From Myxococcota bacterium (GTDB lineage Bacteria; Myxococcota_A; Polyangia; HGW-17): a stretch of 40,671 nucleotides of DNA. Position 1 is the stretch's first letter. Each line of letters starts with the position of its first letter. A model generated the notes under the pieces. It was not told the origin of the DNA, did no database searches, and saw only the letters and a list, made by a program, of their open reading frames with translations. This document shows positions 23,312 to 39,819 of the stretch, in pieces. The DNA lies in contig JAHJMN010000012.1 of assembly GCA_018821305.1 (NCBI GenBank), forward strand, positions 1 through 40,671, given 5' to 3'. Position numbers and translations under genes: made by a program.

Positions 23312-24844
23312 TCAGGGATGGGAGATGAGATAGCGGCCATCAGCCTGACGAACCACAAGAGTATCTTCATTAATATTCACAACGGGCAGAATGCCAAAAA
23401 GATCAGAGGACCAGGCGCCGGAACTGAAAAGACCGGTGGTAGGCTGAACATAAAAGAGGCTCATGTCATAAAGAATGCCGCTGTAAGATGTAGGAGTACC
23501 TGTACGTGTCCAGTATCTGTCCGGGCCCGCACGACGTTCCGTAGCAGTTGTGGGATCGGAGAACCAATCCAGAACGGGACCGTCGCTGGATAAGAAAGTT
23601 CCACCAAGCTCTGTACGGGAAGGTATGAAAACATAGTTGTCTACAGTTCCTGACGAAGGTGTAGACTGTGGATTATCAAGGGCCCAATCCACGGGAGTAA
23701 GTTCAACTATGCTCTTGAACTCATCGGAAAAACTCTCATAAACGCCTGTAACGTCGTCATTGAGCCAGGTCCTCAATGTGCAAGCTTCCCATTTATTGTA
23801 CCAACCACCATCATGGAAACCACGGAGTGATACAATCCCGGAGCTCATAAGAGTTACTGTTTCAGGGAGATAGGCGCGATGGACTACACGCCACTCAATT
23901 GTATTTCCATCAAAATTCCAGGTATCATCATAAACGATTGCGCCCAGAGCGAGAAACTTAACGGGAACCGGGCCGTAATTGCACATGTGAGTAATGCTCT
24001 CAGAACCGGCAACGCATACACCAGTTCCATCGTCGGCGCAAATTACAATACGAAGCCCGCCTTCAGTACAGTCGCCCTCAACACCAGCGAAGGATGTTGA
24101 AGTAATTATTGGAGTAAGAGCATCGGTACCATCCGTTCCAGTTTCACCGTTACAAACATAGGTTGTTGTCTCAGAACCGGTAACGCATACACCAGCTCCA
24201 TCGTCGGCGCAAATTACAACACGAAGCCCACCTTCCGTGCAGTCTCCCTCAACACCCGTGAAGGGAGTTGTTGTAATTATGGGAGAAAGAGCATCGGTAC
24301 CATTTGTTCCAGCTTCACCGTTACAAACATAGGTTGTTGTCTCAGAACCGGCAACACATACGCCAAATCCATCATCAGTGCAGGCTTCAATACGAAGTCC
24401 GCCTTCCGTGCAGTCTCCCTCAACGCCATCGAAGGGAGTTGTTGTAATTATAGGAGAATTAGCATCGGTACCATTTGTTCCAGCTTCACCGTTACAAACA
24501 TAGGTTGTTGTCTCGGTGCCTTCAGCACACGTGCCAGTACCATCATCGGTGCAAGCTACAATCATCACACCACCGTCGCTACAATCACCCATGGCCCCTT
24601 CAAAGGGAGTAGCGGTCACAAGTGGAGGAGTTGCATTTTCACCAGGGGCGCCATTGCATATAATTTCATCCACTCCATCGACCGTGAGCACAACGCCCCC
24701 ATGAGGGCATTGTTCTATTGTAGCACTCACCATATCCACGTTAGAACCACTGGATGCGGTGCCGTCATCGCAACTGATGGCCAAAAATGTCATTGATAAA
24801 ACCATTGTTGCAAAAATTAAACCTTTAAAAATCGATTGTTGCAT
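23312..24844 (-). CDS. Lipoprotein with tandem Cys repeats and a C-terminal DUF6273-like domain
   Basis: 510 residues. The lipobox LAISC near residue 25 marks an acylated protein. Residues about 70-300 are four 57-residue units (pattern TPFxGVEGDCTEGGLRIxxC, then ETTTYVCNGEAGTNGTDA), resembling the Cys/Gly repeats called DUF7151 in Myxococcota-type proteins. The last 200 residues (IEWRVVHR, TLMSSGIVSLRGFHDGG, CTLRTWLNDD, VFIPSRTELGG) look like a DUF6273 / formylglycine-type domain. Outer-membrane anchored and displayed, function unknown. It converges with deoD. Confidence 0.82.
   Translation of the reverse strand: MQQSIFKGLIFATMVLSMTFLAISCDDGTASSGSNVDMVSATIEQCPHGGVVLTVDGVDEIICNGAPGENATPPLVTATPFEGAMGDCSDGGVMIVACTDDGTGTCAEGTETTTYVCNGEAGTNGTDANSPIITTTPFDGVEGDCTEGGLRIEACTDDGFGVCVAGSETTTYVCNGEAGTNGTDALSPIITTTPFTGVEGDCTEGGLRVVICADDGAGVCVTGSETTTYVCNGETGTDGTDALTPIITSTSFAGVEGDCTEGGLRIVICADDGTGVCVAGSESITHMCNYGPVPVKFLALGAIVYDDTWNFDGNTIEWRVVHRAYLPETVTLMSSGIVSLRGFHDGGWYNKWEACTLRTWLNDDVTGVYESFSDEFKSIVELTPVDWALDNPQSTPSSGTVDNYVFIPSRTELGGTFLSSDGPVLDWFSDPTTATERRAGPDRYWTRTGTPTSYSGILYDMSLFYVQPTTGLFSSGAWSSDLFGILPVVNINEDTLVVRQADGRYLISHP
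23966..24630 (-). repeat. 171-bp tandem repeats inside the lipoprotein gene
   Basis: Four consecutive 171-bp units encode the 57-residue Cys repeats. Neighbouring units share long identical stretches, for example the complement of GCATCGGTACCATTTGTTCC, so copy number may vary between strains. Confidence 0.75.
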
Positions 24845-25017
24845 TACAGTCTTCTTTCGTTTGAGGAAATAACGTTTTCCAATAATTTGAGAAACAAAAA
24901 AACATCATAACATAGCCAGTGGCCGAAATAAAACAAAGAAATAGAATTTTTTTTACACAAAGCAAAATAAGAGCACAATCAACGAAAACCCAATTTTTTT
25001 CCGGGGGGAACCATCTC

Positions 25018-25053
25018 GATTCGCTCGCGAAGGATTTTATCAAAAATCCAACG
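25018..25053 (+). repeat. Fragment of the TGTCCTG element
   Basis: ATTCGCTCGCGAAGGATTTT and ATCAAAAATCC match the first inner part of copy 1 (9238-9270) almost exactly, but both element ends are missing. Confidence 0.6.
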
Positions 25054-25495
25054 TTTTGTAATCGCATCGATGTGAATGCTCACAGGCAAATCCAATCATT
25101 GACAGTGAACCTGGGGATCATAAACCTGAATGACCACACCCCTGAATCCCCACACAATATTGAATGAACGGATCATAAAACGGATTTACGCGAACCTGAA
25201 TGCAACCCACCACCCCAAAAAGAAACACCGGATAAAGAGCCACAACGTGGCTCACACACATTAGCGAAGGAATTAAAAATGCCAAAGGCATTGAAAATCC
25301 CTGGTACGAAACCACCAACACACCCTTTTCCCCTTCAAGTGCGCCGCCTGCGGCGGCGCACTTGAAGGGGAAAAGGAAATGGATTCAAACCAATTCCCAG
25401 AGCTGAAGCACTGGGCTAATTAAGGGCGTTCTACGAACGCGGAAATTCCGACGTTTTATAATCACATAGACATAAATGACCTCACCCCTGAATCC
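25053..25495 (+). repeat. Structured CACCCCTGAATCC repeat, copy A
   Basis: Order of modules: GTTTTGTAATCGCAT, CAGGCAAATCCAATC, GGGGATCAT, half-unit with CACCCCTGAATCC, AAACACCGGATAAA, hairpin GAGCCAC-AAC-GTGGCTC (25237-25253), TTAGCGAAGG, hairpin AATGCC-AAA-GGCATT (25278-25292), the 25-bp hairpin (25324-25376), hairpin CCCAGAGCTGAAGCACTGGG (25396-25415), hairpin GCGTTC-TAC-GAACGC (25426-25440), then a final half-unit. The same modules recur at 33191-34247 and, reversed, at 39745-40386, with different stem sequences. Confidence 0.75.
25324..25376 (+). ncRNA. 25-bp perfect hairpin of repeat copy A (possible structured RNA or DNA)
   Basis: Arms 25324-25348 and 25352-25376 are perfectly complementary, with loop TGC. 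The inner GCGCCGCC / GGCGGCGC is shared with the other copies; the outer part (CCCCTTCAAGT) is not, yet it is still paired. There is no T-run, so a simple terminator is unlikely. Confidence 0.5.
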
Positions 25496-25560
25496 TAATC
25501 AGCACTTTCCACCGTTACCCCCATCCAGACATTCTCCAACCATTCCAGTCGTTTTCCGGG
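25496..25560 (-). pseudogene. DUF5131 gene fragment
   Basis: The minus strand reads LEWLENVWMGVTVESAD, matching LEWPENVWMGVTVESAD of the DUF5131 gene at 27272-27921. At DNA level about 50 bases align closely with 27510-27563. The fragment has no start and no downstream part and begins at the end of a CACCCCTGAATCC half-unit, so it looks like debris from recombination at the repeat. Confidence 0.7.
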
Positions 25561-25685
25561 ATTGGGTCAGGCAGTCATGGGGAATGATCTTCTTGACAAA
25601 TTATATTGCGGAGATATAAATTTTCACACTATGCTTTTTCAAGGAATTTTTATAATCAAAATACAATTGAAAATAGTAATGAGCA

Positions 25686-25781
25686 ATGACTGAACAACAA
25701 ATAGAACAAGGTCTAATCCAAAAACTGTGCGATCTCAAATACACTTATCGCCCGGACATCAGAGACCGCGCCTCTCGGTAG
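25686..25781 (+). pseudogene. hsdR: Type I restriction endonuclease R subunit, N-terminal fragment
   Basis: A 31-codon frame encodes MTEQQIEQGLIQKL then CDLKYTYRPDIRDRASR and stops. This matches the usual beginning of HsdR proteins (TEQ-LE-LI-KL-DLKYTYRPDIRDR), whose full length is about 1000 residues. In the same frame after the TAG the sequence continues QLFHYHLTEHPNE to a stop at 25826, possibly what is left of the far end after an internal deletion. All motor and nuclease parts are absent. Confidence 0.7.
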
Positions 25782-25818
25782 CCACAACTGTTCCACTACC
25801 ACCTCACGGAGCATCCGA

Positions 25819-26820
25819 ATGAATGACATCATCCTCTATACTACAGAAGACGGTCGCAGTCAGATCAAACTCAGAACAAGGAACCAATCCGTCTGGCTCA
25901 CCCAGCGCGAGATGGCACTTCTTTTTGATGTGAGCACGGATAACGTAAGCCTGCACCTTAAAAACATCTTTGCACAGGGGGAGCTCGATGAGCATTCAGT
26001 TACCGAGGAATCCTCGGTAACTGCCGCCGACGGCAAAAACTACCTGACCAGACTCTACAATCTCGATACTATTCTGGCCGTGGGCTATAGAGTGCGTTCG
26101 CCGCGCGGTGTGCAGTTCCGTCGCTGGGCAACCACCATCCTCAAGGAATATCTGTTAAAGGGCTTTGCTATGGATGATGAACGTCTGAAGAATCCGGATG
26201 GCCGGCCGGACTACTTCGACGAGATGCTGGAGCGAATAAGGGACATCCGTGCTTCTGAAAAGCGTTTTTATCAGAAAGTACGCGATCTCTTTGCACTGAG
26301 CAGTGACTATGATAAAACGGACAAAACCACACAGACATTCTTTGCCACTGTGCAAAATGTGCTGCTTTACGCAGTAACCCGGAAAACCGCCGCTGAACTC
26401 ATTACCGACCGAATAAATCCGACTGATCCTCATTTCGGGCTACTCTCCTGGAAGGGTGCCACAGTGCGCAAAGCGGATATCCTTGTGGCTAAAAATTACC
26501 TTACCGAGGATGAGATCGACACATTGAATAGGCTTGTGGTCATCTTTCTGGAAACCGCTGAACTGCGGGCAAAAAGCAAACAGGTGACAACCATGAGTTA
26601 CTGGAGAGAAAATGTAAATCAGATCATAACCTCAAACGGCTTCCCACTGCTAAATCACTCAGGGTCCATAAGTCACGAGAAGATGGAGAGCAAAACAAGC
26701 GCACTTTATCTCGAATACGACCAGCAACGCAAACTTAAAGAAGCAAAGGAAGCAGATCAGGAAGACGAGGTTGACCTCAAAGCCCTCGAAGACGAAATCA
26801 AAGAACGTCCTAACAAATGA
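25819..26820 (+). CDS. rhuM: RhuM-family (virulence RhuM) protein
   Basis: 333 residues. The conserved N-terminal region reads IILYTTEDGRSQIKLRTRNQ, then WLTQREMALLFDVSTDNVSL (DNA-binding-like), YNLDTILAVGYRVRSPRGVQFR and RWATTILKEYLLKGFAMDDE, all typical of RhuM proteins. The C-terminus is charged and helical (ALYLEYDQQRKLKEAKEADQ). RhuM genes often sit inside type I restriction-modification loci; here the gene lies between hsdR and hsdM remnants and its stop overlaps the hsdM start as ATGA. Length is full, so it may still be expressed. Molecular function of the family is unclear. Confidence 0.88.
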   Translation: MNDIILYTTEDGRSQIKLRTRNQSVWLTQREMALLFDVSTDNVSLHLKNIFAQGELDEHSVTEESSVTAADGKNYLTRLYNLDTILAVGYRVRSPRGVQFRRWATTILKEYLLKGFAMDDERLKNPDGRPDYFDEMLERIRDIRASEKRFYQKVRDLFALSSDYDKTDKTTQTFFATVQNVLLYAVTRKTAAELITDRINPTDPHFGLLSWKGATVRKADILVAKNYLTEDEIDTLNRLVVIFLETAELRAKSKQVTTMSYWRENVNQIITSNGFPLLNHSGSISHEKMESKTSALYLEYDQQRKLKEAKEADQEDEVDLKALEDEIKERPNK

Positions 26821-26970
26821 CCAAAAAACCTGGTAACGCACAGTGGGATATAGTTGACCAATTGCGCGGTGCTTTGAACGCGGATGACTTTCGCGATTAC
26901 ATGCTATCTTTCCTTTTTCTGCGCTATCTGTCTGACAACTATGAGGTGTGCGGTGGGGTAATCACATAGA
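26817..26970 (+). pseudogene. hsdM: Type I restriction methylase M subunit, N-terminal fragment
   Basis: Starting in the ATGA overlap with rhuM, the frame reads MTKKPGNAQWDIVDQLRGAL, then NADDFRDYMLSFLFLRYLSD and NYE, the standard beginning of HsdM. After about 43 residues the sequence enters a CACCCCTGAATCC half-unit (GGGGTAATCACAT) and stops at TAG. The methyltransferase domain is lost, so the type I system is not functional here. Confidence 0.8.
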
Positions 26971-27022
26971 CGTGAATGACCACACCCCTGAATCCTCACA
27001 CATCCTTGAATGAACGGATCAT
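26955..27022 (+). repeat. CACCCCTGAATCC-family half-unit at an hsdM/DUF5131 junction
   Basis: GGGGTAATCACATAGACGTG through TGAATGAACGGATCAT matches 33944-34011 nearly base for base. Upstream is truncated hsdM; 24 bases downstream is the 3' end of the split DUF5131 gene. Confidence 0.8.
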
Positions 27023-27045
27023 TCGCCCTGCCCTTATCTCAACAA

Positions 27046-27120
27046 TCATCCTACGGCCTGTCGTGGGAACTCGTCCCAGGTCCGACCGTCGAGCTCGCGA
27101 CCAGCGGCTTTCTTATTAGT
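27046..27120 (-). pseudogene. 3' remainder of the split DUF5131 gene
   Basis: Read on the minus strand from the target duplication, this encodes KKAAGRELDGRTWDEFPRQA then VG and a stop. That is the normal ending of DUF5131 proteins, and it joins exactly in frame to ...FFKQWGGVNK of the main part once the 151-bp element and one target copy are removed. Confidence 0.85.
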
Positions 27121-27271
27121 TCGTGTCCTGAAATTCAATTTTTGTCAAAATTGAGCATGTTTAAGAAAACATGCTATTCAGAACACTACAATAATTTCAA
27201 GCTTTTCATTCTTAATGTCCTGTGTATAAATTCGTCATTAACTTGAAAATGTCGAATTACAGGACATTAAC
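27121..27271 (+). mobile_element. TGTCCTG element, copy 3 (151 bp), inside the DUF5131 gene
   Basis: Runs from TCGTGTCCTGAAATTC to AATTACAGGACATTAAC. Flanks are TTATTAGT (27113-27120) and TTATTAAC (27272-27279), an 8-bp duplication with two changes. The inner hairpin AGCATGTTT-AAGA-AAACATGCT has no sequence match in the other copies. It supplies the new C-terminus and stop of the interrupted gene. Confidence 0.8.
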
Positions 27272-27921
27272 TTATTAACACCACCCCATTGTTTAAAGAA
27301 AAATGAGATTTTCTGCTTTGTACATTGATCCCGGATATCTTTTACCCACAAAGGATTCATTTTGCGGGCTCCGGGCCCGGATTCACCACCGGCAATTACC
27401 CAGTCAATTCCTGATAAATCAACTTCCGGAATCCCGGAAATAAGGGGCTCCATGCTTATAAACTTCACGAAAGAAGGCACCGATTTCAAATCATCAATAC
27501 GATGAACATAATCAGCACTTTCCACCGTTACCCCCATCCACACATTCTCCGGCCATTCCAGTTCCCCCGCCATTTCCGCCAGTATGTCTGACCTCTTCGT
27601 AAGAACCTGAAACGTATGCTGCTTTGCCACCGTCATCACTCTGAAAATCTCCCGGATAAACTCTCCCGGAACATCCTCATGAAACAAATCACTCATACTG
27701 TTAACAAAGATCATCCTCGGCTTTTTCCACAGAAGCGGATACCCCACAACACCCTCATGACACCGCACTTCAAATCCATCTCTATAATTTACCTGCCCCA
27801 TTGCCTGAAGCCGCAACGCCATCCTCTCGGCATAACAGTTCCGACACCCCTCACTGATTTTAGTACACCCCGTAACAGGATTCCAGGTAACCTCAGTCCA
27901 CTCAATCCGAGTACTCGCCAT
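27238..27921 (-). CDS. DUF5131 (phage Gp37/Gp68-like) protein, C-terminus replaced by an insertion
   Basis: 227 residues. It starts STRIEWTEVTWNPVTGC and has the family's Cys set Cys19-x6-Cys26-x2-Cys29 (GCTKISEGCRNCY), MIFVNSMSDLFHEDVP, FQVLTKRSD, VWMGVTVES, FISMEPLI and WVIAGGESGPGARKM. From NKLMSCNSTFSS onward the residues are encoded by the TGTCCTG element; the native end lies at 27046-27120. About 24 native residues are replaced, so activity is doubtful. The family occurs in phages and defence islands, often with a TcmP partner, which was not seen here. Biochemical role unknown. Confidence 0.85.
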   Translation of the reverse strand: MASTRIEWTEVTWNPVTGCTKISEGCRNCYAERMALRLQAMGQVNYRDGFEVRCHEGVVGYPLLWKKPRMIFVNSMSDLFHEDVPGEFIREIFRVMTVAKQHTFQVLTKRSDILAEMAGELEWPENVWMGVTVESADYVHRIDDLKSVPSFVKFISMEPLISGIPEVDLSGIDWVIAGGESGPGARKMNPLWVKDIRDQCTKQKISFFFKQWGGVNKLMSCNSTFSS

Positions 27922-27934
27922 GATTGGGTTATTC

Positions 27935-28318
27935 CTATTTGGGGATATTCAATAAAACTACAAAGCTTGCCATTAGTTCATCATATTTGATAGGAGCATT
28001 ATGACCTTGAAGTGCTTTATACCCTGATTCCATCAATTCTAGTAGCGAAATATTTTTATTGAATTCTTTTTTTAGGTGCTGCTGGGTATTAAAAGTAATA
28101 TCAGCGATACGTTCCGGTTTTTCTTTTGTACGTTTTGATAATTCACTAATAAGAAATTTAAATCTTTGAACAGAACTGTGGTTCTTATCGATCAATTTTC
28201 CTGCATTTAAAGAAGCTAATCTATATTCAAGTGTTTCGGGAGTTTTCTCTTTTTTTACAGAAGTCCCACATGATACAAATAGAATTGAAAATATCGAAAA
28301 GAAAAAAATATATCTCAT
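27935..28318 (-). CDS. Small lipoprotein of unknown function
   Basis: About 127 residues from the ATG at 28318, which overlaps the stop of the preceding gene as TAATG; an upstream TTG at 28327 is less likely. Lipobox LFVSC marks an acylated Cys near residue 18. The mature part is Lys-rich and helical without a known motif. It is translationally coupled to the next lipoprotein gene upstream, so the two probably act together. Confidence 0.75.
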   Translation of the reverse strand: MRYIFFFSIFSILFVSCGTSVKKEKTPETLEYRLASLNAGKLIDKNHSSVQRFKFLISELSKRTKEKPERIADITFNTQQHLKKEFNKNISLLELMESGYKALQGHNAPIKYDELMASFVVLLNIPK

Positions 28319-28896
28319 TATCTGCAATCCTTACTTTTTATATCGTCATTGGTATTTTGTATTAAATCAGGCCCACTACTAATGACACAAAAACCATCTC
28401 CAACTTTTTTTACAAAAATCGTATTTCCCCATGCGTCCTTTAAATCAGGTTTCTTGATCATTCCTGCTTTTATTAAAGCATTTAATAGCTCGGGACCGGA
28501 CATTCCTTTATGTTCAGGCTCCTCATTACTTTCAGTCATTACTGAAGAAATATTATCCAATTTAAGCCTGGTGGTTACCTCTTTAGCTTTCTTAAATTTC
28601 CCCGAATTAACTTCACTCTTTTTAGGTTCCATATCAAGGAAAGAAAGCCTATTTGTAGCAAGTAAAAGATTTTCACAATTATAAGCGTTTTTCACTTCCT
28701 TAAATAAATTCCTGTTTTTATTGTCCTTAAAGAATCTAAAACACTTTTCAACAAAAACCTCTTCCTCTGCCATGAGAGGCAAAACTTTACATTTTTTTAA
28801 TTCTCCAAAAAGCTTTGTACAAAACATTTTATCTTCAGGTTTTTTGTTGCATCCCGAAAACACAATTATCAATACTGCCAAAAATAAAATTCTCAT
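28318..28896 (-). CDS. Lipoprotein with GspG-like C-terminal segment
   Basis: 192 residues from the ATG at 28896, seven bases after AAGGA; a GTG at 28902 sits too close to that site. Lipobox VFSGC gives an acylated Cys near 16. Four further Cys follow (FCTKLFGELKKCK, KCFRFF, NCENLL). The C-terminal stretch LKDAWGNTIFVKKVGDGFCV then SSGPDLIQNTNDDI resembles the calcium-loop end of type II secretion pseudopilins of the GspG type, but there is no pilin-like N-terminus. Probably an envelope protein using this small domain; function unknown. Confidence 0.75.
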   Translation of the reverse strand: MRILFLAVLIIVFSGCNKKPEDKMFCTKLFGELKKCKVLPLMAEEEVFVEKCFRFFKDNKNRNLFKEVKNAYNCENLLLATNRLSFLDMEPKKSEVNSGKFKKAKEVTTRLKLDNISSVMTESNEEPEHKGMSGPELLNALIKAGMIKKPDLKDAWGNTIFVKKVGDGFCVISSGPDLIQNTNDDIKSKDCR

Positions 28897-29139
28897 TTTC
28901 ACGTCCTTTTTAAAACTATCTATTGAAAAGAATTTGCTGTCAACATTTTCTTTAAAACGACATTGAGAATCTCAAATAATAAAAATTTATTAAAAAATCC
29001 ATCATGAACTTGATAAAGTAAAGAAATGGTTCAATTGTTTTGGACAGCATCAATACCAGAATCCAGGTAAACAACTGGAAACGGTTTCAAAGTGATAAGC
29101 AGAGTTGAGATTTACGCAAAACGTTTTTGGGGAGGACTC

Positions 29140-29553
29140 TCAAAAGGGAATGTCCTCATCATAATCAAAAGGCATAGAATCTTCCTTGTGTCCGACTGGA
29201 ATAACTATGCTGAGCAACCTTTCTCCTTGCGCTAATAGTTGATCATAAGTCATTATAGTTACACTGCTCAATCGGTGATTTAATCCGTGTAGTGCCCGTA
29301 ACTTTTGATCTTCCCAGCCCTTAGAGCGACCAATAATGATTTCGATGGGCGGAGTCAAATATTAGTACCTGCATATCTGGGCGCTTCAATTCGACAAGGT
29401 CTCGATATCCTGCAATTACGGTTGGAAGTAACAGATCCGTAAAAAATATTTTGTTTTCCAATGTTCTGAATTTGGGGACAAATTGATAATGCAATCTGGT
29501 TTTTTCAAGAGTAACTCTCTGTTCTTCCACAAAAACGTTTTCTTTGACGTAGT
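29140..29553 (-). pseudogene. sduA: Shedu-type (DUF4263) nuclease remnant, internally deleted
   Basis: Two frames on the minus strand carry pieces of one protein. The first reads FVPKFRTLENKIFFTDLLLP then AGYRDLVELKRPDMQVLI, with a PD-(D/E)xK-like Asp and ExK; it runs out of frame to a stop at 29321. The second (from about 29358) reads PPIEIIIGRSKGWEDQKL then LRALHGLNHRLSSVTIMTYD and QLLAQGERLL, the typical Shedu C-terminus. The part between is missing and the join is out of frame; the N-terminus is also lost, with a stop just before 29553. It lies immediately after the ATPase gene on the same strand. Confidence 0.75.
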
Positions 29554-29562
29554 TTTAAACAT

Positions 29563-31665
29563 TTATATCTTCTGCATTTTTATGTGTTTATTACACTCTT
29601 CTATTACATAATCTGGAATCATATCAAATTTTTCTGGACTCAATTGATTAATATATTCATTTTCTACATGATAAGTTTCATTTATGAATTTCTGAATTAC
29701 TGAGTTTTCTACATCATAATCAAATAGCCTAAATACTTGCAGTTTCTCATAACCATTATCGCACGATAAGTAAAGCGATTTCACTTCTTCGATATTAGAT
29801 GCTCGGTTCACTAACAATTGGTATTTAAAACCATTTATGGAGTCATCTATTGATGAACACCCTGCTTTAAATCGACTACTTTCCATTGTTGGATATTTAC
29901 CATTTTCGCACTTTGGCTCACGAGTGTCAATTGCAATTGGTCGTTTGTGTAGCAAATTTGACAATACCTGATATCCATCTCCTTTTTCATCCGTTATTTC
30001 TAGTAACCTTCTCAAATAGACTGCCTTAACAAGAACATCCTTATTCGAAGCAAGAGCGCCCTTGCATATTTCTGAGAATGTTTGAATGTCCCTCTTCTCA
30101 ATAACCACCTCTGAAATTTTGCCCTGTTTGTATTTCAAAAATGCGGCTTTAGTTTGATTCTGAAACTGGCTTGCGACAGCCTTAATGGTATCAATTATTG
30201 GCTCAACATCATGAGTCAGCATTAATACTGTCTTCCCTTTAAAGCAGGATTCCGCTTTTCTTCTGAAAAGCATTTCTAGTATTGCGTACTTCTTGTTCTT
30301 ATCAAATGAGGATATTGGGTCATCCAAGATAATAAGATTCGGTTTCTTCGCCAGACATTCGTACATGAATAAAACAATAGCAAAAGCATTCCGCTCGCCG
30401 AAGCTAAGATGCTGCTTCCCGCCACTTAGATGATCATCAAAATCCATGTGTAATAGTCTTAGTTGCGATTTTGCATCATCTCCAGCGATTTCTACTTTGT
30501 ATTTGTAGCCGGCATAAGCGAGGAAATCATTTATATCAGATTGATGTTTTTGTATTACTTTCTTCATTATCGAACGGAGAGTATTTAGTTTTATTTTTAA
30601 ATTTTCAGCCTCTTCAATTAGCTCGTCAATCGATGAATTTATTGACAAAACAGCCTTTCTGGTTTTCTCAGAGTCTAATCCAGAAAAAAAGTCTAGTTCC
30701 AACTTGTAAGAACTGAGTTTTTCAGCAATCATCTCTCCGGATTTAAAATCAAATCCGGTCAGGGTTCTCAACTTCTCGAGCTTTTCAACGAAGTTATCTA
30801 TTTGCATCTTAATGCCAACCAAAAACTCTATGTGTTCATTTTCAAGGCCATATTTTAACATTGTTATTTTTTCGAGCGTTGACCTTGCATTTTCTGAAAA
30901 ATATTCCCCCAGCTTTTGTATTACATCAATTATTCCGATCAAATTCTTAATAACGGTTTTGTTATATTCTTCGCTGACCTTTTTTATCTGCTCTCTTTTA
31001 CTTGTTGCGTCTACTGTACAAAATGGGCAGCTATCTGATAATTCCGTGAATTCATTTCCTTTGATCTGCCAATCTATCCAACTGATATTTTTATCACTCT
31101 GAATAAATGGGGAATATTGCTCAAGTCCAACTGGAATATGTTGAATCTTGTTTCCTTCTGCCAAACACTTCATACCAATAGATGATTTATTTAATCCAGT
31201 CTTCGTTAATTTAAATGCACCACCAAGTTCTTTCAGTTTGGCGATTAGATTTTCAAGACCTTCGTTCTTTAAAAACAATGATTTGATTTTTTGCATAATG
31301 ATTTCTATATCTCTTTCCAACTTCTTATAGTTATCGTTCTTTACAAAAACATCAAAGCTATTACTTACAAGTTCATCTGGCCGAAACACAATGTTGTTGA
31401 CGTAATCCTCATTAAAACACATCACACTTGAGATTTGGTTAGCTCCCGCCACCTGCGGAACTAGACCATCTGGATTAGTCTTCTTTAGTTTGAACGGCAT
31501 TAGCTCTTTGAGATTATATTCATTATCAGACATACAACATTGAATAGCCTTCGCGATAGTGCTCTTTCCTGCACCATTGGGCGCAAATTTTATGTTTAAC
31601 CGGCCTTCAACTATCTCAATACTCGCGGAGTCCAAGTTGTTGCAATTTTTTATTTCGAACTTCAT
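29563..31665 (-). CDS. RloC/PrrC-like AAA ATPase with CPFC hook (candidate anti-phage nuclease)
   Basis: 700 residues. Walker A is APNGAGKST (28-36); a central coiled-coil-like region holds SCPFC (212-216), as in zinc-hook proteins; the ABC-type signature LSFGERNAF (420-428), Walker B LIILDDP (444-450) and His485 (LTHD) follow. The C-terminal third has RRLLE (552-556) with His573 (NLLHKRP), and a late YHVENEYINQL (His666). An Arg-x3-Glu plus His set is what the anticodon nucleases PrrC and RloC use, so a tRNA-cutting defence protein is possible; this is inference. AAGGAG lies five bases before the ATG. No DNA-modification partner is intact nearby. Confidence 0.75.
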   Translation of the reverse strand: MKFEIKNCNNLDSASIEIVEGRLNIKFAPNGAGKSTIAKAIQCCMSDNEYNLKELMPFKLKKTNPDGLVPQVAGANQISSVMCFNEDYVNNIVFRPDELVSNSFDVFVKNDNYKKLERDIEIIMQKIKSLFLKNEGLENLIAKLKELGGAFKLTKTGLNKSSIGMKCLAEGNKIQHIPVGLEQYSPFIQSDKNISWIDWQIKGNEFTELSDSCPFCTVDATSKREQIKKVSEEYNKTVIKNLIGIIDVIQKLGEYFSENARSTLEKITMLKYGLENEHIEFLVGIKMQIDNFVEKLEKLRTLTGFDFKSGEMIAEKLSSYKLELDFFSGLDSEKTRKAVLSINSSIDELIEEAENLKIKLNTLRSIMKKVIQKHQSDINDFLAYAGYKYKVEIAGDDAKSQLRLLHMDFDDHLSGGKQHLSFGERNAFAIVLFMYECLAKKPNLIILDDPISSFDKNKKYAILEMLFRRKAESCFKGKTVLMLTHDVEPIIDTIKAVASQFQNQTKAAFLKYKQGKISEVVIEKRDIQTFSEICKGALASNKDVLVKAVYLRRLLEITDEKGDGYQVLSNLLHKRPIAIDTREPKCENGKYPTMESSRFKAGCSSIDDSINGFKYQLLVNRASNIEEVKSLYLSCDNGYEKLQVFRLFDYDVENSVIQKFINETYHVENEYINQLSPEKFDMIPDYVIEECNKHIKMQKI

Positions 31666-32245
31666 TTCGCTCCTTTATATTTGATTGAAGATACTCTTAA
31701 TGTTTTCTTTTTCATGCACAACCTATATCTTTTTGTCATTTATACCAATATTATCTAGGCTAAAATACAACTCAACAAAACTGTATCTACGAAAATTTTA
31801 TAACGAGTTTATGCGTCCACTAACTTTTTTAGTAACCCGAACTCGTTTTGTCAAGGTGGAAAACCTAAAAAATTTAAGTGTGTTTATCAGCAAGTTTTTG
31901 AATATATTAGTTCCCATTTTGAGTGGAATTTCAATTTAATATTTTGATACAGATTGGTTTCGATCTTCAAATGAAGACTACTAAACGAACTTGATTATTA
32001 AACACCTTGATTTTCCATGGGTTCGTGGTTTTCTTCCTTGGAGACAGGGAAAGCGAATGAATGAAATTTTCAAAGCAATCAAGAGTGATAGTGATCGGTT
32101 AAGGCCTCCAGACATCATAATGATTTTTTAAGATATAAAACAAGAGAACTTACATCGATTAGGAAACCAAACTAATCTGATTTTATGCGGTCATTTAAAA
32201 CAACTATCGTGGGCTTTTTATATTTGTGAACACTTATGACTATAT
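31666..32245. other. AT-rich stretch with a dispersed repeat
   Basis: No convincing gene. Bases 31782-31930 are a copy of the GTTTATGCGTCCACTA repeat. The remainder (31931-32245) shows nothing recognisable. Confidence 0.5.
31782..31930 (+). repeat. GTTTATGCGTCCACTA repeat, copy 1
   Basis: Shared core with 37906-38045: ATTTTATAAC, AGTTTATGCGTCCACTA, TTTTTTAGTAACC, GTTTTGTCAAGGTGGAAA, GTGTTTATC. A shorter version is at 33106-33175 (TTTTTTAGTAGCTAGAAAC, AGTTTTGTCAAG). Confidence 0.7.
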
Positions 32246-32776
32246 CTACGGCAGGTGAACACAAAGCCCTGAGTTTGGTCCTGGAGGGAGGCCGAAAGCA
32301 GTATCAACGCCTGTATTCTTACGAAGGTCATCAAGCAATGCTTTTGCAGAAATTGATTTACCTACCTTTAGCTCAGATTCTGCGCGTGGATTCTGCACAT
32401 TCTTCGCCCGATAGACGACAAGCTCTGCGATTCCATCTTCAATGGCTCGCAGGCAGATGGCACGAATATAGAAGCGGTTAAACTCACCTTCTGCAAGCAT
32501 TTCGTGCGCGTTGCAACGCATTTTAGGCCTAGAATAACTACCATTTTTCAGTTTACGTTGTTTTTCATAAAGGTTAAGGAAATTCAAAATTGCTTCACCT
32601 AACGTTATGTCGCTTCCTTGTCTGGCCGCTTCACGAATCAAATCCGGATAGTTTATTTGTCCCATCTGGTTTAGATTGTCGCTTATATAGAGGTCATTAT
32701 TAGAAATATCAAGTTCGATCTCTCTCAACATAAGATTCCTTGTCCGTTCGTCCAACTCTTTGTAATTCAGTGCCAT
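32246..32776 (-). CDS. Conserved hypothetical protein
   Basis: 176 residues, starting MALNYKELDERTRNLMLREI after a GGAGGA site. Other apparent conserved blocks are LAEGEFNRFYIRAICLRAIE and ELVVYRAKNVQNPRAESE, with a Gly/Pro-rich end (GLPPGPNSGL). I recall proteins of this type in many bacteria, often in accessory regions, but know no function. Cytoplasmic, no membrane segment. The C-terminal HLP may be original. Its downstream flank is unremarkable; upstream lies repeat DNA. Confidence 0.7.
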   Translation of the reverse strand: MALNYKELDERTRNLMLREIELDISNNDLYISDNLNQMGQINYPDLIREAARQGSDITLGEAILNFLNLYEKQRKLKNGSYSRPKMRCNAHEMLAEGEFNRFYIRAICLRAIEDGIAELVVYRAKNVQNPRAESELKVGKSISAKALLDDLRKNTGVDTAFGLPPGPNSGLCVHLP

Positions 32777-33190
32777 TGTTGTCTTCCTCCTTAATCAATT
32801 AAAAAGTTTTTTGTACCCCGCACAACCATTGCCGCATCATTTAAACTCCCAATCAGAAATATGTTCTGTGCTTTTAGTTTTATCCGAACAACTCGGCCTC
32901 TTCTGAACTAGGATTGATATATATAATTCTTTTTGCATTTTATAAAAACGTACAGTACGGAAATAAACTGTGGGTTTTATACTGTTCGGTTTATAATGAC
33001 GAAAGCCTTTTCTAATGCAATAAGTTTGCAAAATTTTGTTAAAGTTCGATTTTGATTATAAAAACTCCTTGTTAGAGGAAAGTCTGAAAATCACTTTTGT
33101 ACGCTTCTTTTAATTTTTTAGTAGCTAGAAACAGTTTTGTCAAGTTAGAAAATTGACTTAATTGAATTTATCCCTGACGAGCGGAGGGAA
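32777..33190. other. Gene-free stretch before the repeat array
   Basis: AT-rich; contains the promoter side of the gene starting at 32776 and, at 33106-33175, a short copy of the GTTTATGCGTCCACTA repeat. No credible coding frame. Confidence 0.5.
33106..33175 (+). repeat. GTTTATGCGTCCACTA repeat, partial copy 2
   Basis: TTTTTTAGTAGCTAGAAACA and GTTTTGTCAAG match the right half of the other two copies; the left half is absent. Confidence 0.55.
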
Positions 33191-34247
33191 CGGCGTTTTG
33201 TAACTTGAATCTGGGAGACATAATCACATAAACCAGAATGATCACAATATTGAATCCGCGGATCATGAGCCTGTGCCTGCACAGGCGAAAGCTTATCAGC
33301 CCGGTTCGTAAGAGCCGGGTTCGAAAATGCACGGACCCCTTTCCCCCTTTGCTTGCGCCGCCGCAGGCGGCGCAAGCAAAGGGGGAAAAGAAAGGGATAT
33401 GAACATCTGATCCCAGAGCTGAAGCACTGGGCTAATTAAGGGCGTTCTACGAACGCAGAATTTCCGACGTTTTCTAATCACATCAACGTGAATGCTCACA
33501 GGCAAATCCAATCGTTGGCGGTGAACGTGGGGATCATAAACATGAATGACAACACCCTGAATCCTCACACATCCTTGAATAAACGGATCATAAAAAACAC
33601 GGAATTACGCGATTCTGAATGCAAACTTCCGACCCTAAAAAGAAACACCGGATAAAGAGCCACAACGTGGTTCTCACACATTAGCGAAGGGTTCAAAGAT
33701 GCCAGCGGCATCAAAGATCCCTGGTGGGCGCCGGGGTAATCACATCATCCTGAATGACCACACCCCTGAATCCTCACACATCCTTGAATGAACGGATCTT
33801 TAAAAAAAACGGAATTACGCGATTCTGAATGCAATCAACCATCTTCAAAACGAAACACCGGAAAAAGAACCTGCATCGCGGGTTCCACACATTAGCGAAG
33901 GGATCAAAGATGCCAGCGGCATCAAGGATCCCTGGTGGGCGCCGGGGTAATCACATAGACGTGAATGACCACACCCCTGAATCCTCACATCCTTGAATGA
34001 ACGGATCATAAAAACACGGAATAACGGAATAACGCGATTCTGAATGCAACATCCCGACCTCAAAAAGAAACACCGGATAAAGAGCCACAACGTGGTTCTC
34101 ACACATTAGCGAAGGGATCAAAGATGCCAGCGGCATCAAGGATCCCTGGTGGGCGGTGGGGTAATCACATCAGCCTGAATGACCTCACCCCTGAATCCCC
34201 TTGCGACGCTGAATGAACGGATCATACAAAACACGGAATTTATTATT
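33191..34247 (+). repeat. Structured CACCCCTGAATCC repeat array, copy B
   Basis: The left part holds hairpins GCCTGTGC-CT-GCACAGGC (33269-33286), CCCGGTTC-GTAA-GAGCCGGG (33300-33319), a 23-bp hairpin (33340-33388), CCCAGAGCTGAAGCACTGGG (33412-33431) and GCGTTC-TAC-GAACGC (33442-33456). The right part is a tandem array with GGGG starts at 33529, 33733, 33944 and 34158, a 204-214 bp period. Each full unit has CACCCCTGAATCC (or a close variant), ACACCGGA, a variable hairpin with AAC/ATC loop, TTAGCGAAGG and GATGCC-AGC-GGCATC, then CCCTGGTGGGCG. Confidence 0.8.
33340..33388 (+). ncRNA. 23-bp perfect hairpin of repeat copy B (possible structured RNA or DNA)
   Basis: Arms 33340-33362 and 33366-33388 pair perfectly, with loop GCA. 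It is in the same position relative to flanking modules as the hairpins at 25324-25376 and 39820-39872, but its middle (TTTGCTTGCG) differs. Confidence 0.5.
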
Positions 34248-34300
34248 TCGTTACACGCAGGTACCAGACGGCAGCCCTTAAGACCAACCATCCGTATAAA

Positions 34301-34440
34301 CTATACTTCTGGGGTATCGGGGGTGTCTTCGTTGCGGGTGGGGGAGGAGATGCCCATCATGATTCGGAGTTGTTTGTTTGGAACTATTGTGCGGGCGGTT
34401 TTTGCCCAGTCCTGATACCATGCCCACATTTCCTCACGGG
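34301..34440 (-). pseudogene. Duplicated 3' fragment of the 38118-38744 gene
   Basis: The minus strand encodes REEMWAWYQDWAKTARTIVP, then NKQLRIMMGISSPTRNED and TPDTPEV with a stop. It equals the C-terminal 45 or so residues of the gene at 38118-38744 apart from a 9-base loss near the end. There is no start or upstream part; upstream DNA turns into an unrelated AT-rich sequence. The 3' flanks of both copies also share TTTATTATTTCGT. It sits at the end of the copy B array. Confidence 0.8.
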
Positions 34441-34525
34441 AAAAAAACAAACCAGAGTTTTCTTTTACCTTCAGGCAATAATGGATTGAAGAAACTTTTG
34501 CAACTAGAATAGATTGAAGAAAATG

Positions 34526-34891
34526 TTAAATATATGTAAATGATTGAGGTGGTAAAATACCATATGCTTCTTTTAAATCTAATCTTGGTGAGTATTCTAC
34601 CGCATCTTTTATTTTAATAGCGAATCCGTAGTCTTTGTTTATAAAGTAGGAATAAAAAAATTCAGATGTTATTCCAGACTGATCACATGTATTTTTCCAC
34701 AACAAATCTAGCTCGTCACATTCAATCCTTTCAATCTTGAATTCTCCAATAACTTTTTTTATTGGAGAACTAGCATATACTACAACTGTATCTATTTCCT
34801 TTTTAAATATTTGTCTCCTATATTCATATTTTTTTTCACCAGAAAATATCAATGCTGCAAATTGTGGTTTAATTGATAATAAGGCTTTCAT
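34526..34891 (-). CDS. ASCH/PUA-like domain protein
   Basis: 121 residues. MKALLSIKPQFAALIFSGEK then KYEYRRQIFKK is the classic ASCH opening, followed by VVVYASSPIKKVIGEFKIE and, late, EAYGILPPQSFTYI. ASCH domains belong to the PUA-like fold and bind RNA or modified bases; some act as small nucleases or regulators. The start overlaps the 3' end of the PIN-GNAT gene by 23 bases, so it is the third gene of this operon and probably works with it. Confidence 0.85.
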   Translation of the reverse strand: MKALLSIKPQFAALIFSGEKKYEYRRQIFKKEIDTVVVYASSPIKKVIGEFKIERIECDELDLLWKNTCDQSGITSEFFYSYFINKDYGFAIKIKDAVEYSPRLDLKEAYGILPPQSFTYI

Positions 34892-36404
34892 TTGTTCCAG
34901 TCTCCTTCAAAATTGTTAAGAATTGTTTCTGCGAGAGTTGTTTTAAGCCTCTGAGCTCATCTTTCTCACCAGTCAGTATACCTAGTTCTAATAGTCTCTG
35001 TCTATTTATCCTTTTTCCCGTTGGAAACGAGTGTGTGTAAAGAAAATAAATAATAAATGGACGCATCCTCGCATTCCAGTTCCAAAAATCACTTAACTCG
35101 TCGTCAGAAAATACACTTCGCTTTCTACATTTTAAAATAAAATCATCAACATCTTTAATATCGTCGATTTTACCCTCAGCAATTGCAATTGTAGTAATAA
35201 CGCTACTGTAATATGCACTTCTATCTTTTGCAGCTGTTCGATAGAAAATAATAATATCACCTTTAGTTATACTCCTCTCGAACGAGCGAGTAATGTATAC
35301 TTTACTTATTGCATTGCGGTGTGGTTGATTTTCAATAAAATCATATGGGGATTCGGTTGTAAGTATTGAGTCTGGGAGTAATTCAGTATGATAATCAGGA
35401 TAAATGGGGATCATAAAAATATTATTTTTTGTTGTGATATATGGAAAAGTCAGCCTAGGATTACTTACGTTAAAACTTGGTCTAAAATCGCGAACATAGA
35501 CAGCTTCTTTTTTTTCGTCATTGTTTTTTTCACCATAATATTTAAATCCCCAATCTTCTAGTAAATTTATAAGTCGCAGTTGTTCATCAGTACTGCGGAA
35601 TAATGTTACATATATTTCATCTACTTTAGCTATCAAAGCATTATCAAAAATTATTTTTATAAACCGTTCTCCAAGTCTAACCCCGTTATTCGAAACCTTG
35701 AATGTACCAATCTTAAGTCGTTTTTTTCTACTAAATATTGGAGTTATATCCGAATAAGACTCATCTTCATTTTCTATTTTTAAATATAGAAATGATAATA
35801 TCTTACCTTTATTTATTGTTACGTAAGCAGTTTCATCTGATTTTCTAAGGAACCATTTTTCAAAACCTGGGTAATCCATTCGGAAACTGTCAAAGAAATC
35901 ATCAGCAATTGATACTTCACTGAAATATTTCTTGGTTACAGATAGTACTTTATAATCAACAAGCTCAGGATTTTCTGATAAAATCTTTTCTAAAAATGAG
36001 TCAATTGTAAAGACTCGTTCTGATATATTTAACGCAAAAGCTTTCTTGTGTATTTTTTTGTCTTCAGTTATTAGAAAATCAACCCTACTCAGATAGACTT
36101 CATTTAATAAACAAGTATCATTTTTATCATTTTCATTCAGATCATATAGTTTTGCTATACTTATAACTTCAGGAGCAAGATCAGAGTTCGATCGTAGTAT
36201 CTTGTAACTATCAATTTTAACTCTCAATGAATTTGCAGTTTCTTTATTACTATTTTTTTCTATCTCATTTATTGTTATAGAATGCACACATTTTAAGTAC
36301 TTACCCTTATCCAGCCATCTAAAGAGAACACCAATGTCTTTATTAAGTACGCGGCTTGCTTCCCTATGAATAACTATATTGGTATCTAACAGTACTTCCT
36401 TCAT
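34869..36404 (-). CDS. PIN-GNAT-PUA-like multidomain protein
   Basis: 511 residues. Residues 1-140 look like a PIN RNase domain: LLDTNIVIH (first Asp), ITINEIEKNS (Glu), NDTCLLNE and FLITEDKKIH (later Asp). Residues about 165-320 read like a GNAT acyltransferase (KILSFLYLKIENED, LKIGTFKVSNNGVRLGERFI, LINLLEDWGFKYYGEKNN). Residues about 345-460 (PHRNAISKVYITRSFERSIT then KGDIIIFYRTA) resemble an EVE/ASCH-type PUA-like domain. Thus a likely nuclease toxin joined to an acetylating and an RNA- or base-sensing part. The start overlaps the upstream stop as ATGA. Domain assignments by eye; PIN is the surest. Confidence 0.75.
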   Translation of the reverse strand: MKEVLLDTNIVIHREASRVLNKDIGVLFRWLDKGKYLKCVHSITINEIEKNSNKETANSLRVKIDSYKILRSNSDLAPEVISIAKLYDLNENDKNDTCLLNEVYLSRVDFLITEDKKIHKKAFALNISERVFTIDSFLEKILSENPELVDYKVLSVTKKYFSEVSIADDFFDSFRMDYPGFEKWFLRKSDETAYVTINKGKILSFLYLKIENEDESYSDITPIFSRKKRLKIGTFKVSNNGVRLGERFIKIIFDNALIAKVDEIYVTLFRSTDEQLRLINLLEDWGFKYYGEKNNDEKKEAVYVRDFRPSFNVSNPRLTFPYITTKNNIFMIPIYPDYHTELLPDSILTTESPYDFIENQPHRNAISKVYITRSFERSITKGDIIIFYRTAAKDRSAYYSSVITTIAIAEGKIDDIKDVDDFILKCRKRSVFSDDELSDFWNWNARMRPFIIYFLYTHSFPTGKRINRQRLLELGILTGEKDELRGLKQLSQKQFLTILKETGTNESLIIN

Positions 36405-37459
36405 TGCAATTTTCCTTTACCAAGTTTACCAAATAGCTTGCAAATCTTATTAATTGTAGGCCAAACAAAATAGAAGAATATAGACAGCCCTATACTAAGT
36501 GAAATATAAACTTCGAGGGGCAATCTAGACCAAAATTCGCTTGAAAAAAATGAAACATGATTATCAAGTTTAAATGAAGGGATGAAAAGTAAAAAACCGC
36601 TAATAATACTTACAAGCATTGCTAAAGCAAATTGTCCAGTACCTATACGTTCTTTCGTATATACAGAAAAGAAACTATAACTTTCTTCTCCCTTTTGTTT
36701 ATTAAATACAACAATATACTCATCTTTTCTTATTCTCTTGTCTCCTAAATATTTGAAAGACGGATCATACTCAAGAGTTCGTATATTTTTAAGTGAAACA
36801 CGATCAAAGAATGATAACTCATATGTGTTTGGAATAACATTAAAACAAAAACAATTTTTAATTTTAGAAAGAACTTTTTCTTGTAAATTAAGACTAGTAG
36901 GTAAATTTCTGCGTTCATTAATCTTTAGATCATAAAGAATGCTGGATTTACTAATACCTGTTTTTCTAGTGGAAATTAAATTTAAATCAACATTGACTGA
37001 GATTCTAAAATAGATATGAGTTTTGTTATCACTACCTAATTTCTCCTTAAGCATTCTTGTGTTAATCAGTATTTTTAGAATGTTTTCTTTTTCGATTGAA
37101 TTGTCTAATATTACTGGAAGAATGCATAGTGGGTCCCGAAAGGAGAAACGGTGAACAACACCTTTTTCTCTAACCCCGCCATCTATATAAATATTACTCT
37201 CAATCGCGTCGTTAAAAATAAACTTACTATTTTCCGGATCTTTTAACCTTTCGTAAAGGTCAGTTCGCTCCATGGATGAAGTAAGCCAAGGAAGATACAA
37301 ATAAAGAGCAATGTCATCCGGATAATCGTTTTCGGAACTAAGCTCGCCACCAAATTCAACAAGAGCAGTATTATTTTTAAATTCCCAAGTGCAAATATGA
37401 AAGCGTTCGAATTCAACAGAAAAATCCTTGTCATTAAAAATAAAAAAGTTATTTTCCAT
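36401..37459 (-). CDS. Membrane protein with two C-terminal helices, unknown function
   Basis: About 352 residues from the ATG at 37459, six bases after AGGTG; the frame is open to a GTG at 37522 with no clear ribosome site. The first 270 residues are soluble, mixed alpha/beta, without a known motif. Two membrane segments follow: FALAMLVSIISGFLLFIPS and YISLSIGLSIFFYFVWP, then a basic tail (GKLGKGKLQ). It overlaps the PIN-GNAT gene by four bases (ATGA), so it is the first gene of a three-gene operon and may anchor or sense for it. Very AT-rich and low in rare-codon avoidance, suggesting acquisition. Confidence 0.7.
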   Translation of the reverse strand: MENNFFIFNDKDFSVEFERFHICTWEFKNNTALVEFGGELSSENDYPDDIALYLYLPWLTSSMERTDLYERLKDPENSKFIFNDAIESNIYIDGGVREKGVVHRFSFRDPLCILPVILDNSIEKENILKILINTRMLKEKLGSDNKTHIYFRISVNVDLNLISTRKTGISKSSILYDLKINERRNLPTSLNLQEKVLSKIKNCFCFNVIPNTYELSFFDRVSLKNIRTLEYDPSFKYLGDKRIRKDEYIVVFNKQKGEESYSFFSVYTKERIGTGQFALAMLVSIISGFLLFIPSFKLDNHVSFFSSEFWSRLPLEVYISLSIGLSIFFYFVWPTINKICKLFGKLGKGKLQ

Positions 37460-37522
37460 ATTTACACCTGCCCAAAGGGTTTTATGTGGAGCTGTATTCG
37501 ATAACAAAAACATTTTCCACAC

Positions 37523-38117
37523 CTAGCTCGTCCACTATACTTTACCTTTGTATAAAATAAAGCTTTTTGTAATTCTGAAGACCCAGAGTTGCAATATTTT
37601 TCTGATACCTCATCAAATTGTTTACTATTAAAATTCTATGCCTATGACTTTCCGCAAGATGTTTTCCATGAAAGATCCTAGCGTTGTAGTAGTAGGATGA
37701 ATCATTTATATCGATTGAGATGCTTAAATAAATAAGTACTGATTGTTGTTAAAGTTCGGATTTTAATATTTTGCCATTTAAAATTCATAAAACTCATTTA
37801 AGACCATAGACTGAAAACAATCAATCTTTGAACTACTTTTTCAAGGTTATTATCCTGACGGCCATTATTGTTTAAGCCACTAATATACAAAACTCATTTA
37901 AATTGTGTATTTCTGGAAATTTTATAACAAGTTTATGCGTCCACTATTTTTTAGTAACCTGAAACAGTTTTGTCAAGGTGGAAATCCATAAAAGTTAAGT
38001 TTGTTTATCGGCGGGTTTATGAATAGAGATCTATTGGAAATTTGAAAAGGATCTTTTTTTATTATTTCGTCAAAGGCGGGTTTCCAAATTCAGGTCTGAT
38101 TTTAGACGTCCTAGCGC
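37523..38117. other. AT-rich gene-free stretch
   Basis: It holds the upstream region of the three-gene operon and, at 37906-38045, the third GTTTATGCGTCCACTA repeat. Nothing else was recognised. Confidence 0.5.
37906..38045 (+). repeat. GTTTATGCGTCCACTA repeat, copy 3
   Basis: AAATTTTATAACAAGTTTAT, GCGTCCACTA, TTTTTTAGTAACC, GTTTTGTCAAGGTGGAAA and GTTTGTTTATC match copy 1 at 31782-31930 in order and spacing. The two long copies bracket the block 32.2-37.5 kb. Confidence 0.7.
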
Positions 38118-38744
38118 TTATACTTCGGGGTTTTCTGGGGTTTCGGGGGTGTCTTCGTTGCGGGTGGGGGAGGAGATGCCCATCATGATTCGGAGTTGTT
38201 TGTTTGGAACTATTGTGCGGGCGGTTTTTGCCCAGTCCTGATACCAGGCCCACATTTCTTCCCGGGCTGCTTCCAGTTCAGCTTTGTTTATCATCCAGGA
38301 ATCATCGGGGGTATTTTTACCCTTTGCCTGATCAAGAAGGGTAGTTACTTCGTTGATTTTTTCATTTGTAAGACCACGCTTGGCTAAAAGAGCCATGGCA
38401 TCGGTCCAGGGAGCAGAGGTTTTTCCGGCAATGCTATTAAGGCGGTTTGTAAACTCATTTACATTTGCCACAACTTCAATTCCGCTTGTTTTATTGAGAT
38501 TTGTAAAAAGTTCCTTGTGTACTTCGGGGTGTTTTCTTGAAAGGGCTGCATCTGCAACGTCAAACCAGGTGTTTTCCCAGTTATCAATAGCTGAAATAAG
38601 ATCGGAAGTAGCACCTACATCCGGATTGGATGATGCCCCGAGACTACGGCCTGTGGCTTTTTCAAACAACTGCCATCCTTCTGTTAATTCTGCTTCGTCA
38701 AATCCGCGCTGCAGCATGATTGAACGAATCCTTGTGTTCTGCAT
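38118..38744 (-). CDS. Conserved hypothetical helical protein, probably interrupted by an in-frame stop
   Basis: 208 residues from ATG 38744. The sequence is helical (RIRSIMLQRGFDEAELTEGW, DAALSRKHPEVHKELFTNLN, AELEAAREEMWAWYQDWAKT) and ends in a Pro/Glu tail. No known domain was recognised. No ribosome site is visible before 38744, while the 18-codon frame just upstream, in the same frame and ended by TAA directly before this ATG, has AAGGAG. The natural protein therefore probably began at 38801 and has acquired a stop, unless readthrough or re-initiation occurs. A 3' fragment is duplicated at 34301-34440. Confidence 0.6.
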   Translation of the reverse strand: MQNTRIRSIMLQRGFDEAELTEGWQLFEKATGRSLGASSNPDVGATSDLISAIDNWENTWFDVADAALSRKHPEVHKELFTNLNKTSGIEVVANVNEFTNRLNSIAGKTSAPWTDAMALLAKRGLTNEKINEVTTLLDQAKGKNTPDDSWMINKAELEAAREEMWAWYQDWAKTARTIVPNKQLRIMMGISSPTRNEDTPETPENPEV

Positions 38745-39744: not shown

Positions 39745-39819
39745 TCCGATTTTCCGCGTTCGTAGAACGCCTTTATTTAGCCCGGAGTTTCAACTCCGGG
39801 ATCAGGAGTTAAATCCTTT

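Follow-up and report, generated by a model that had tools for sequence, protein, structure and literature searches.

Does the 700-aa ATPase encoded on the minus strand at 29563..31665 of this DNA (40,671 nucleotides in full, hereafter the window) belong with the anticodon nucleases, and if so, does it work alone or with a restriction partner? PrrC has been described as an hsd-dependent tRNase, and RloC as a stand-alone tRNase that responds to DNA breaks. The original prediction called the protein RloC/PrrC-like, with an uncertain nuclease assignment, and thought a stand-alone role more likely, reasoning that the hsd genes near this ATPase are only remnants.

An intact ABC-ATPase gene with a CxxC hook

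The gene is intact and is preceded by a ribosome-binding site read from the sequence (AAAGGAG, 31670..31676, minus strand), with the ATG 4 nt downstream. Its G+C content is 0.351, compared with 0.431 for window positions 1-22000. The PADLOC model PDLC04889, a subfamily model of the PDC-S06 system (models PDLC04886-04898), aligned its columns 1-689 of 693 with protein residues 1-697 (E=1.4e-280). The PHROGs profile phrog_2801 (function unknown) matched the protein at E=1.5e-92. Homologues in E. coli carry the annotation 'AAA family ATPase' only.

We assembled a family alignment of 21 sequences, made up of the window protein plus 20 homologues, which come from genome contigs, genomes and plasmids, have identities as low as 26% and include two partial rows; residue numbers below are those of the full-length window protein. 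As comparators, we picked 11 proteins (L045-L055) by AAA_13 search and tblastn, which are RloC-type by motif rather than by test. Each comparator has one CxxC, and an Arg-x3-Glu followed by Ser-His.

The predicted ABC-type ATPase with a CPFC hook was borne out by a Pfam AAA_13 match to the 700-aa protein at E=7.9e-15, with ABC_tran and SMC_N matching more weakly, and by a CPFC at residues 213-216 (31018..31029). Walker A, APNGAGKST (residues 28-36, 31558..31584), lies in a conserved region of the 21-sequence alignment. The ABC signature LSFGE (residues 420-424, 30394..30408) and the H-loop THD (residues 484-486, 30208..30216) occupy invariant columns, and the columns of Walker B plus the D-loop, LIILDDPISSFD (residues 444-455, 30301..30336), are invariant or nearly so; all of these motifs are on the minus strand. 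CPxC is kept in all 20 homologue rows that cover the hook. In a joint MAFFT alignment of 30 sequences, from which the partial rows L004 and L026 were excluded, one hook column and one His column served all 30, and the hook column was the CxxC column of 11 out of 11 RloC-type proteins. By hhalign, the 21 homologues matched the 11 RloC-type proteins at a probability of 99.7 (E=1.7e-25); the match spans the ATPase and the hook, with the hooks aligned. ABC-ATPase motifs and a CxxC hook within the ATPase are present, as in RloC. Mutants of the GkaRloC hook are reported to be hyperactive. In an unrooted tree (19 family and 11 RloC-type sequences), the family and the comparators separated with support 1.000.

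The C-terminal domain

The original prediction named Arg552, Arg553, Glu556 and either His573 or His666 as nuclease residues placed as in anticodon nucleases. All five are at those positions. According to the accessible part of PMC2610378, the RloC motif is Arg-X3-Glu-X36-52-His, often with Ser before the His, and Arg692, Glu696 and His737 of GkaRloC are each needed, mutation abolishing activity. Arg552-x3-Glu556 (29998..30012, minus strand), the putative RloC/PrrC-type Arg and Glu, is conserved in 21 out of 21 sequences, and Arg553 in 19 (Lys in two). The placement therefore agrees for Arg and Glu but not for the distance to the His: the Glu-His spacing is 109 residues in the window protein and 103-115 throughout the family (21/21), versus 39-44 in ten of the 11 comparators and 63 in L046. 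This reflects residues 557-658 (29692..29997, minus strand), a segment before the His helix that exceeds its counterpart in most RloC-type comparators by about 60-70 residues.

Between the two candidate histidines the alignment gave a clear choice. We rejected His573 as the catalytic residue because five of the 21 family members have Lys there, the other 16 having His. His666 is invariant (21/21), and so is Lys659; the Asn/Asp between them is likewise kept in 21/21. Together they form a putative HEPN-like active-site motif, Lys659-x2-Asn662-x3-His666 (KFINETYHVEN, 29659..29691, minus strand). The pattern [RK]-x2-[NHD]-x3-H occurs in all 21 family members and in 9 out of 11 RloC-type comparators, and Lys takes the HEPN-Arg position in 21/21 and 3/11, respectively.

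To locate the His columns, we cut proteins at the His and then aligned them with phrog_2801. This profile matches RloC-type L051 end to end (E=2.7e-48) and the window protein in three stretches that cover most of its length, C-terminal domain included; window residues 495-700 (206 residues) match it alone at E=1.6e-10. Column 688 held the catalytic-type His of RloC-type L045, L047 and L051 (3/3 tested), as well as His666 of the window protein, His666 of L002 and His663 of L005 (3/3 family proteins tested). It also held His666 when the window's C-terminal piece was aligned alone (E=9.7e-7). Segment alignment of the His stretch, family against RloC-type, was in register with a local P of 0.024 for these hand-chosen segments. 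Judged by its profile column, His666 is homologous to the catalytic His of RloC. The predicted RloC kinship thus stands on a shared hook column, a significant ATPase profile match and a catalytic-His column shared through phrog_2801.

The Arg and Glu probably, not certainly, correspond to those of RloC, as judged from the alignments. AAA_13 column 647 (Pfam) holds both Glu556 and the Glu of the four RloC-type proteins cut there (4/4), and the hand-chosen Arg-x3-Glu segments of family and RloC-type proteins align in register (local P 0.0099). The joint MAFFT alignment places the family Arg552/Glu556 in columns 892/896 and the RloC-type Arg/Glu in columns 954/959. With the window protein cut at Glu556, the phrog_2801 alignment ends at 552<->626, before column 648 (the Glu of L051); the AAA_13 alignment ends at 566<->631 in L041 and before the Arg-x3-Glu motif in L002.

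Compared by their C-terminal domains alone, the family and RloC-type profiles gave no significant match (E=0.13). Restriction to C-terminal core columns gave E=0.081, with 9 out of 300 column shuffles equalling the score and the reversed profile reaching 15.9 vs 16.6. None of the HEPN families was matched by the C-terminal piece in a profile search.

These results bear on a rival reading, in which the RloC RNase domain is the ancestor of the C-terminal domain but nuclease activity has been lost, or the target is not tRNA (other RNA, or binding only), leaving a sensor or decoy ATPase. Points in its favour are the replacement of the HEPN Arg by Lys in 21/21, the extended stretch ahead of the His helix and the lack of a HEPN profile match; in addition, the accessible part of PMC3710099 regards HEPN domains without the catalytic motif as probable RNA binders. 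However, Lys, Asn/Asp and His together with Arg-x3-Glu are kept in 21/21 down to 26% identity, which a dead domain would hardly do, and three of the 11 RloC-type comparators also have Lys at the HEPN-Arg position. We consider this reading unlikely, and a HEPN-like nuclease domain is preferred.

Structure models

The model of residues 495-700 (pLDDT 81.6, pTM 0.79; one good model of five) is almost entirely helical beyond residue 530; Arg552/Glu556 and Lys659-His666 lie in two different helices. Fold comparison of this model, a check put forward in the original prediction, found no significant PDB match (best Foldseek E=0.33, best Z 2.3) and no significant match in BFVD (best E=0.16). HEPN was absent from the fold-search rows shown, which neither supports nor excludes a HEPN fold, and sequence searches of the PDB with L051 or L045 found no RloC-type structure. 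The full-length model (pLDDT 69.5) matched SMC and Rad50 heads in Foldseek, with AriA of PARIS at rank 50. A long antiparallel coiled coil was looked for around the hook; the model has broken helices there, at a pLDDT of about 50-60.

Distribution of the family

With the window protein as query, only one of the 377 genomes of its own phylum matched at E<=1e-20, namely the window's own genome. Among 59 genomes of relatives, six matched at E<=0.001, one of them again the window's own; in the other five, the matches were short ABC stretches no longer than 164 residues (best E 1.4e-5). In the class of G061, 4 out of 369 genomes matched, including the seed, one match being a C-terminal piece only. 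Searches with the PADLOC model at E<=1e-30 found 1 out of 297 genomes (the seed) and 4 out of 299 (including the seed), respectively. The distribution of the gene is sporadic.

In plasmids, 905 out of 72,556 records matched, 781 of them with coverage of at least 80%, mostly from E. coli and at about 51% identity. By megablast, the E. coli homologue was present in 725 out of 5426 complete E. coli genomes, 544 of these at >=80% coverage, and its placements were on plasmids in 750 out of 763 cases and on chromosomes in 13.

We rejected a phage or viral origin: among 50,697 phage records, none was a relative at E<=1e-6, and none of four pattern matches in viral_contigs was confirmed as a relative. 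A C-terminal piece from G259 (L027) was considered as a stand-alone effector and rejected as a remnant beside a transposase-like frame, judged by eye only. Also by eye, the homologue of G388 is interrupted at about residue 324 by a transposase-like frame (L043:8347-9054).

Neighbourhoods of the homologues

The count covers 18 loci with annotated or scanned neighbours (the window, L002, L003, L014-L018, L034-L039, L042 and L056-L058); L004, L005, L040, L041 and L043 were excluded from the count, as these offered frames only. Restriction, methylase or BREX genes were in view at 10 out of 18 loci and absent at 8. In L003, the homologue lies inside a BREX locus (L003:3426-11323, with pglX and pglZ), between brxL and a nuclease-like gene, its start overlapping the end of brxL. 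The next genes there look SbcD/SbcC-like, by eye only. Homologues sit directly behind a type III Mod-Res pair in L015 and L042, behind a type I HsdR-like gene in L002 and behind a BsuBI/PstI type II pair in L037.

Of four E. coli plasmids viewed, two (L014 and L056; 5605-10139) carry a SMODS nucleotidyltransferase and S-4TM effector pair (CBASS-like) together with a type I system, the nucleotidyltransferase being named as such in L056; the surroundings in L014 and L056 are a plasmid defence island. At the other E. coli plasmid loci, the homologue stands without type I hsd genes or a SMODS/S-4TM pair. A vapBC pair adjoins both an RloC-type gene on a Klebsiella plasmid (L054:1429-4665) and the family gene on E. 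coli plasmids (L014:8001-10944), as if RloC-type and family genes were exchanging in the same plasmid slot.

No partner gene is constant across the homologue loci, so that autonomy is still plausible. The predicted stand-alone role has nevertheless lost some of its force, because the host genome has type I genes elsewhere and many homologues lie beside restriction systems or BREX.

The same loci allow another explanation to be weighed, namely a Rad50/SMC-like DNA-end or plasmid-maintenance ATPase that has no effector role and is found in defence islands incidentally. The SMC and Rad50 heads that head the full-length model's matches, the strong plasmid bias, and SbcC/SbcD-like genes beside the homologues in L015, L017 and L038 are in its favour. 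Most loci, however, have no SbcD partner; the distribution is sporadic, as in the window's own phylum; and R-M, BREX, CBASS-like and toxin-antitoxin genes accompany the homologues. Rad50 is not known to have such a C-terminal domain with a conserved polar motif, which also counts against this explanation. We regard it as improbable and retain a defence effector as the preferred reading.

Neighbourhood in the window and the host genome

Directly downstream of the 700-aa gene are two frames of Shedu (SduA) gene remnants (29140..29530, minus strand; PADLOC SduA 6e-24 and 4.6e-17). An apparently intact PADLOC PDC-M11 A and B pair, encoding PIN-domain and ASCH-domain proteins according to Pfam and PADLOC, occupies 34526-36404 (minus strand), in a region (34526-37522) with a G+C content of about 0.31. 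A DUF5131 protein is encoded at 27238-27921 (minus strand) and also matches PADLOC PDC-M41B and PDC-M30B, with radical SAM mobile pair protein A below the cut-off. A RhuM-family gene (25819..26820, plus strand; Pfam E=1.8e-106) shares an ATGA overlap with a 50-aa HsdM N-terminal fragment (26817..26969, plus strand; HsdM_N E=1.2e-9), which ends where a dispersed repeat (copy from 26945) starts.

Dispersed and tandem repeats, with units of about 80 and 211-214 nt that are 60-97% alike, fill the intergenic stretches of 24800-40671. Copies lie at 25099, 26945, 33555-34242 and 39946-40386, and one marks the break of the HsdM fragment.

Among the window ORFs scanned, the HsdM_N fragment was the only trace of hsdM, hsdS or hsdR linked to the 700-aa gene. 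The statement that hsd genes are only remnants is therefore correct for the window but not for the genome, where HSDR_N matched one frame each on C131 (1053 aa), C61 (1064 aa) and C216 (811 aa), N6_Mtase matched on the same three contigs, and a broken frame on C145 also carries HSDR_N.

An hsd-dependent nuclease of the PrrC type, orphaned in the window, would account for the decayed hsdM fragment and the RhuM gene within 6 kb, and a partner could be supplied in trans by the type I genes on other contigs. Yet the PADLOC PrrC profile (PDLC02360) gave no match to the window protein at E<=0.1, although it matches L045 and L046; the protein has the hook insert, described in the accessible part of PMC2610378 as distinct to RloC; and homologues have no constant hsd partner. 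The PrrC alternative raised in the original prediction is accordingly disfavoured, and we rate it as very improbable, the RloC-like reading being preferred.

Proposed mechanism and significance

We think it likely that the gene encodes a horizontally acquired, single-gene abortive-defence protein of RloC-like kind with a C-terminal HEPN-like RNase. An RloC-like mechanism is our best guess because the head, hook and His column are shared and Arg-x3-Glu is retained. In this model, the ABC-ATPase head, which resembles Rad50 and carries a CxxC hook in its insert, would restrain the C-terminal HEPN-like RNase. Infection or failed restriction, sensed as DNA ends, restriction intermediates or an anti-restriction protein, would shift the state of the ATPase; a phage-encoded anti-restriction protein as the trigger is suggested by analogy with PrrC. 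The freed RNase would then cut host RNA, most likely tRNA, and translation would stop. For the window protein, we infer the HEPN fold, RNase activity, tRNA target, zinc binding, trigger and anti-phage effect.

A bolder proposal, which we put forward tentatively and hold to be possible rather than probable, is that the family is a third ABC-ATPase nuclease lineage beside PrrC and RloC: an autonomous, plasmid-carried zinc-hook guard whose partnerships with type I, II and III restriction and with BREX are opportunistic and which would cleave RNA through a Lys-based HEPN-like site, the extra 60-70 residues setting a new target. If true, this uncharacterised effector would be common, with roughly one in ten complete E. 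coli genomes carrying it at close to full length.

The existence of the family and its suspected defence role are already known, as PADLOC lists it among phage-defence candidates. New, as far as the literature searched goes, are the connection of the C-terminal domain with RloC, the selection of His666 rather than His573, Lys-x6-His, the long spacing and the plasmid prevalence. A functional study of the subfamily was not found in the literature searched, including the accessible parts of PMC11514479, PMC11878078, PMC12839542 and PMC12322248, preprints and most subscription papers being outside the scope of the search. Common on E. coli plasmids but uncharacterised, the family offers a new branch, open to testing, within a known type of defence, with a concrete, mutable active-site prediction for a gene that is nearly always plasmid-borne in the 544 out of 5426 complete E. 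coli genomes carrying it at >=80% coverage. The family keeps the hook and the His, departs from RloC in the segment ahead of the His helix and occurs in several restriction settings, so that hook-ATPase sensing could be tested in E. coli K-12.

Comparison with known systems

The window protein resembles PrrC in combining an ABC-ATPase with a C-terminal domain containing Arg-x3-Glu...His, the architecture given for PrrC in the accessible part of PMC2610378. It differs in having a hook, which PrrC lacks, and in having neither a PrrC profile match nor an hsdMSR partner. To PDC-S06 it is linked by the full-length match to PDLC04889, and RloC-type L045 and L046 are also assigned to this PADLOC system, through other models; PDC-S06, however, is a database phage-defence candidate. 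phrog_2801 is a profile of viral proteins, whereas the window protein has no direct relative in the phage collection. Relative to the HEPN R-x4-6-H motif, the family has Lys for Arg, with the polar Asn/Asp and the His kept in 21/21. HEPN domains have been proposed for both RloC and PrrC and linked to R-M and RhuM neighbourhoods, according to the accessible part of PMC3710099.

Further traits of RloC are tRNA wobble excision and a response to Zn. The closest likeness is to RloC, known from Geobacillus kaustophilus and Acinetobacter baylyi, with which the family shares a Rad50-like ABC-ATPase split by an insert that bears a CxxC hook, the C-terminal position of the effector, a His in the same profile column, the Arg-x3-Glu motif and [RK]-x2-[NHD]-x3-H. 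The differences are equally specific. The Glu-His spacing is 103-115 in the family versus the 36-52 published for RloC (PMC2610378, accessible part), the residue before the His is Tyr or Phe rather than Ser, Lys-x6-His stands in place of Arg-x6-His, and the family protein has about 700 aa versus 728-841 aa. Homologues are often found beside restriction systems, whereas RloC, a DNA-break-responsive switch, is said in the accessible part of PMC3874168 to be rarely linked to R-M. We call the protein RloC-like, and not RloC, because its Glu-His spacing lies outside the published range and Lys-x6-His replaces Arg-x6-His; on sequence grounds, the family is a branch of its own beside RloC.
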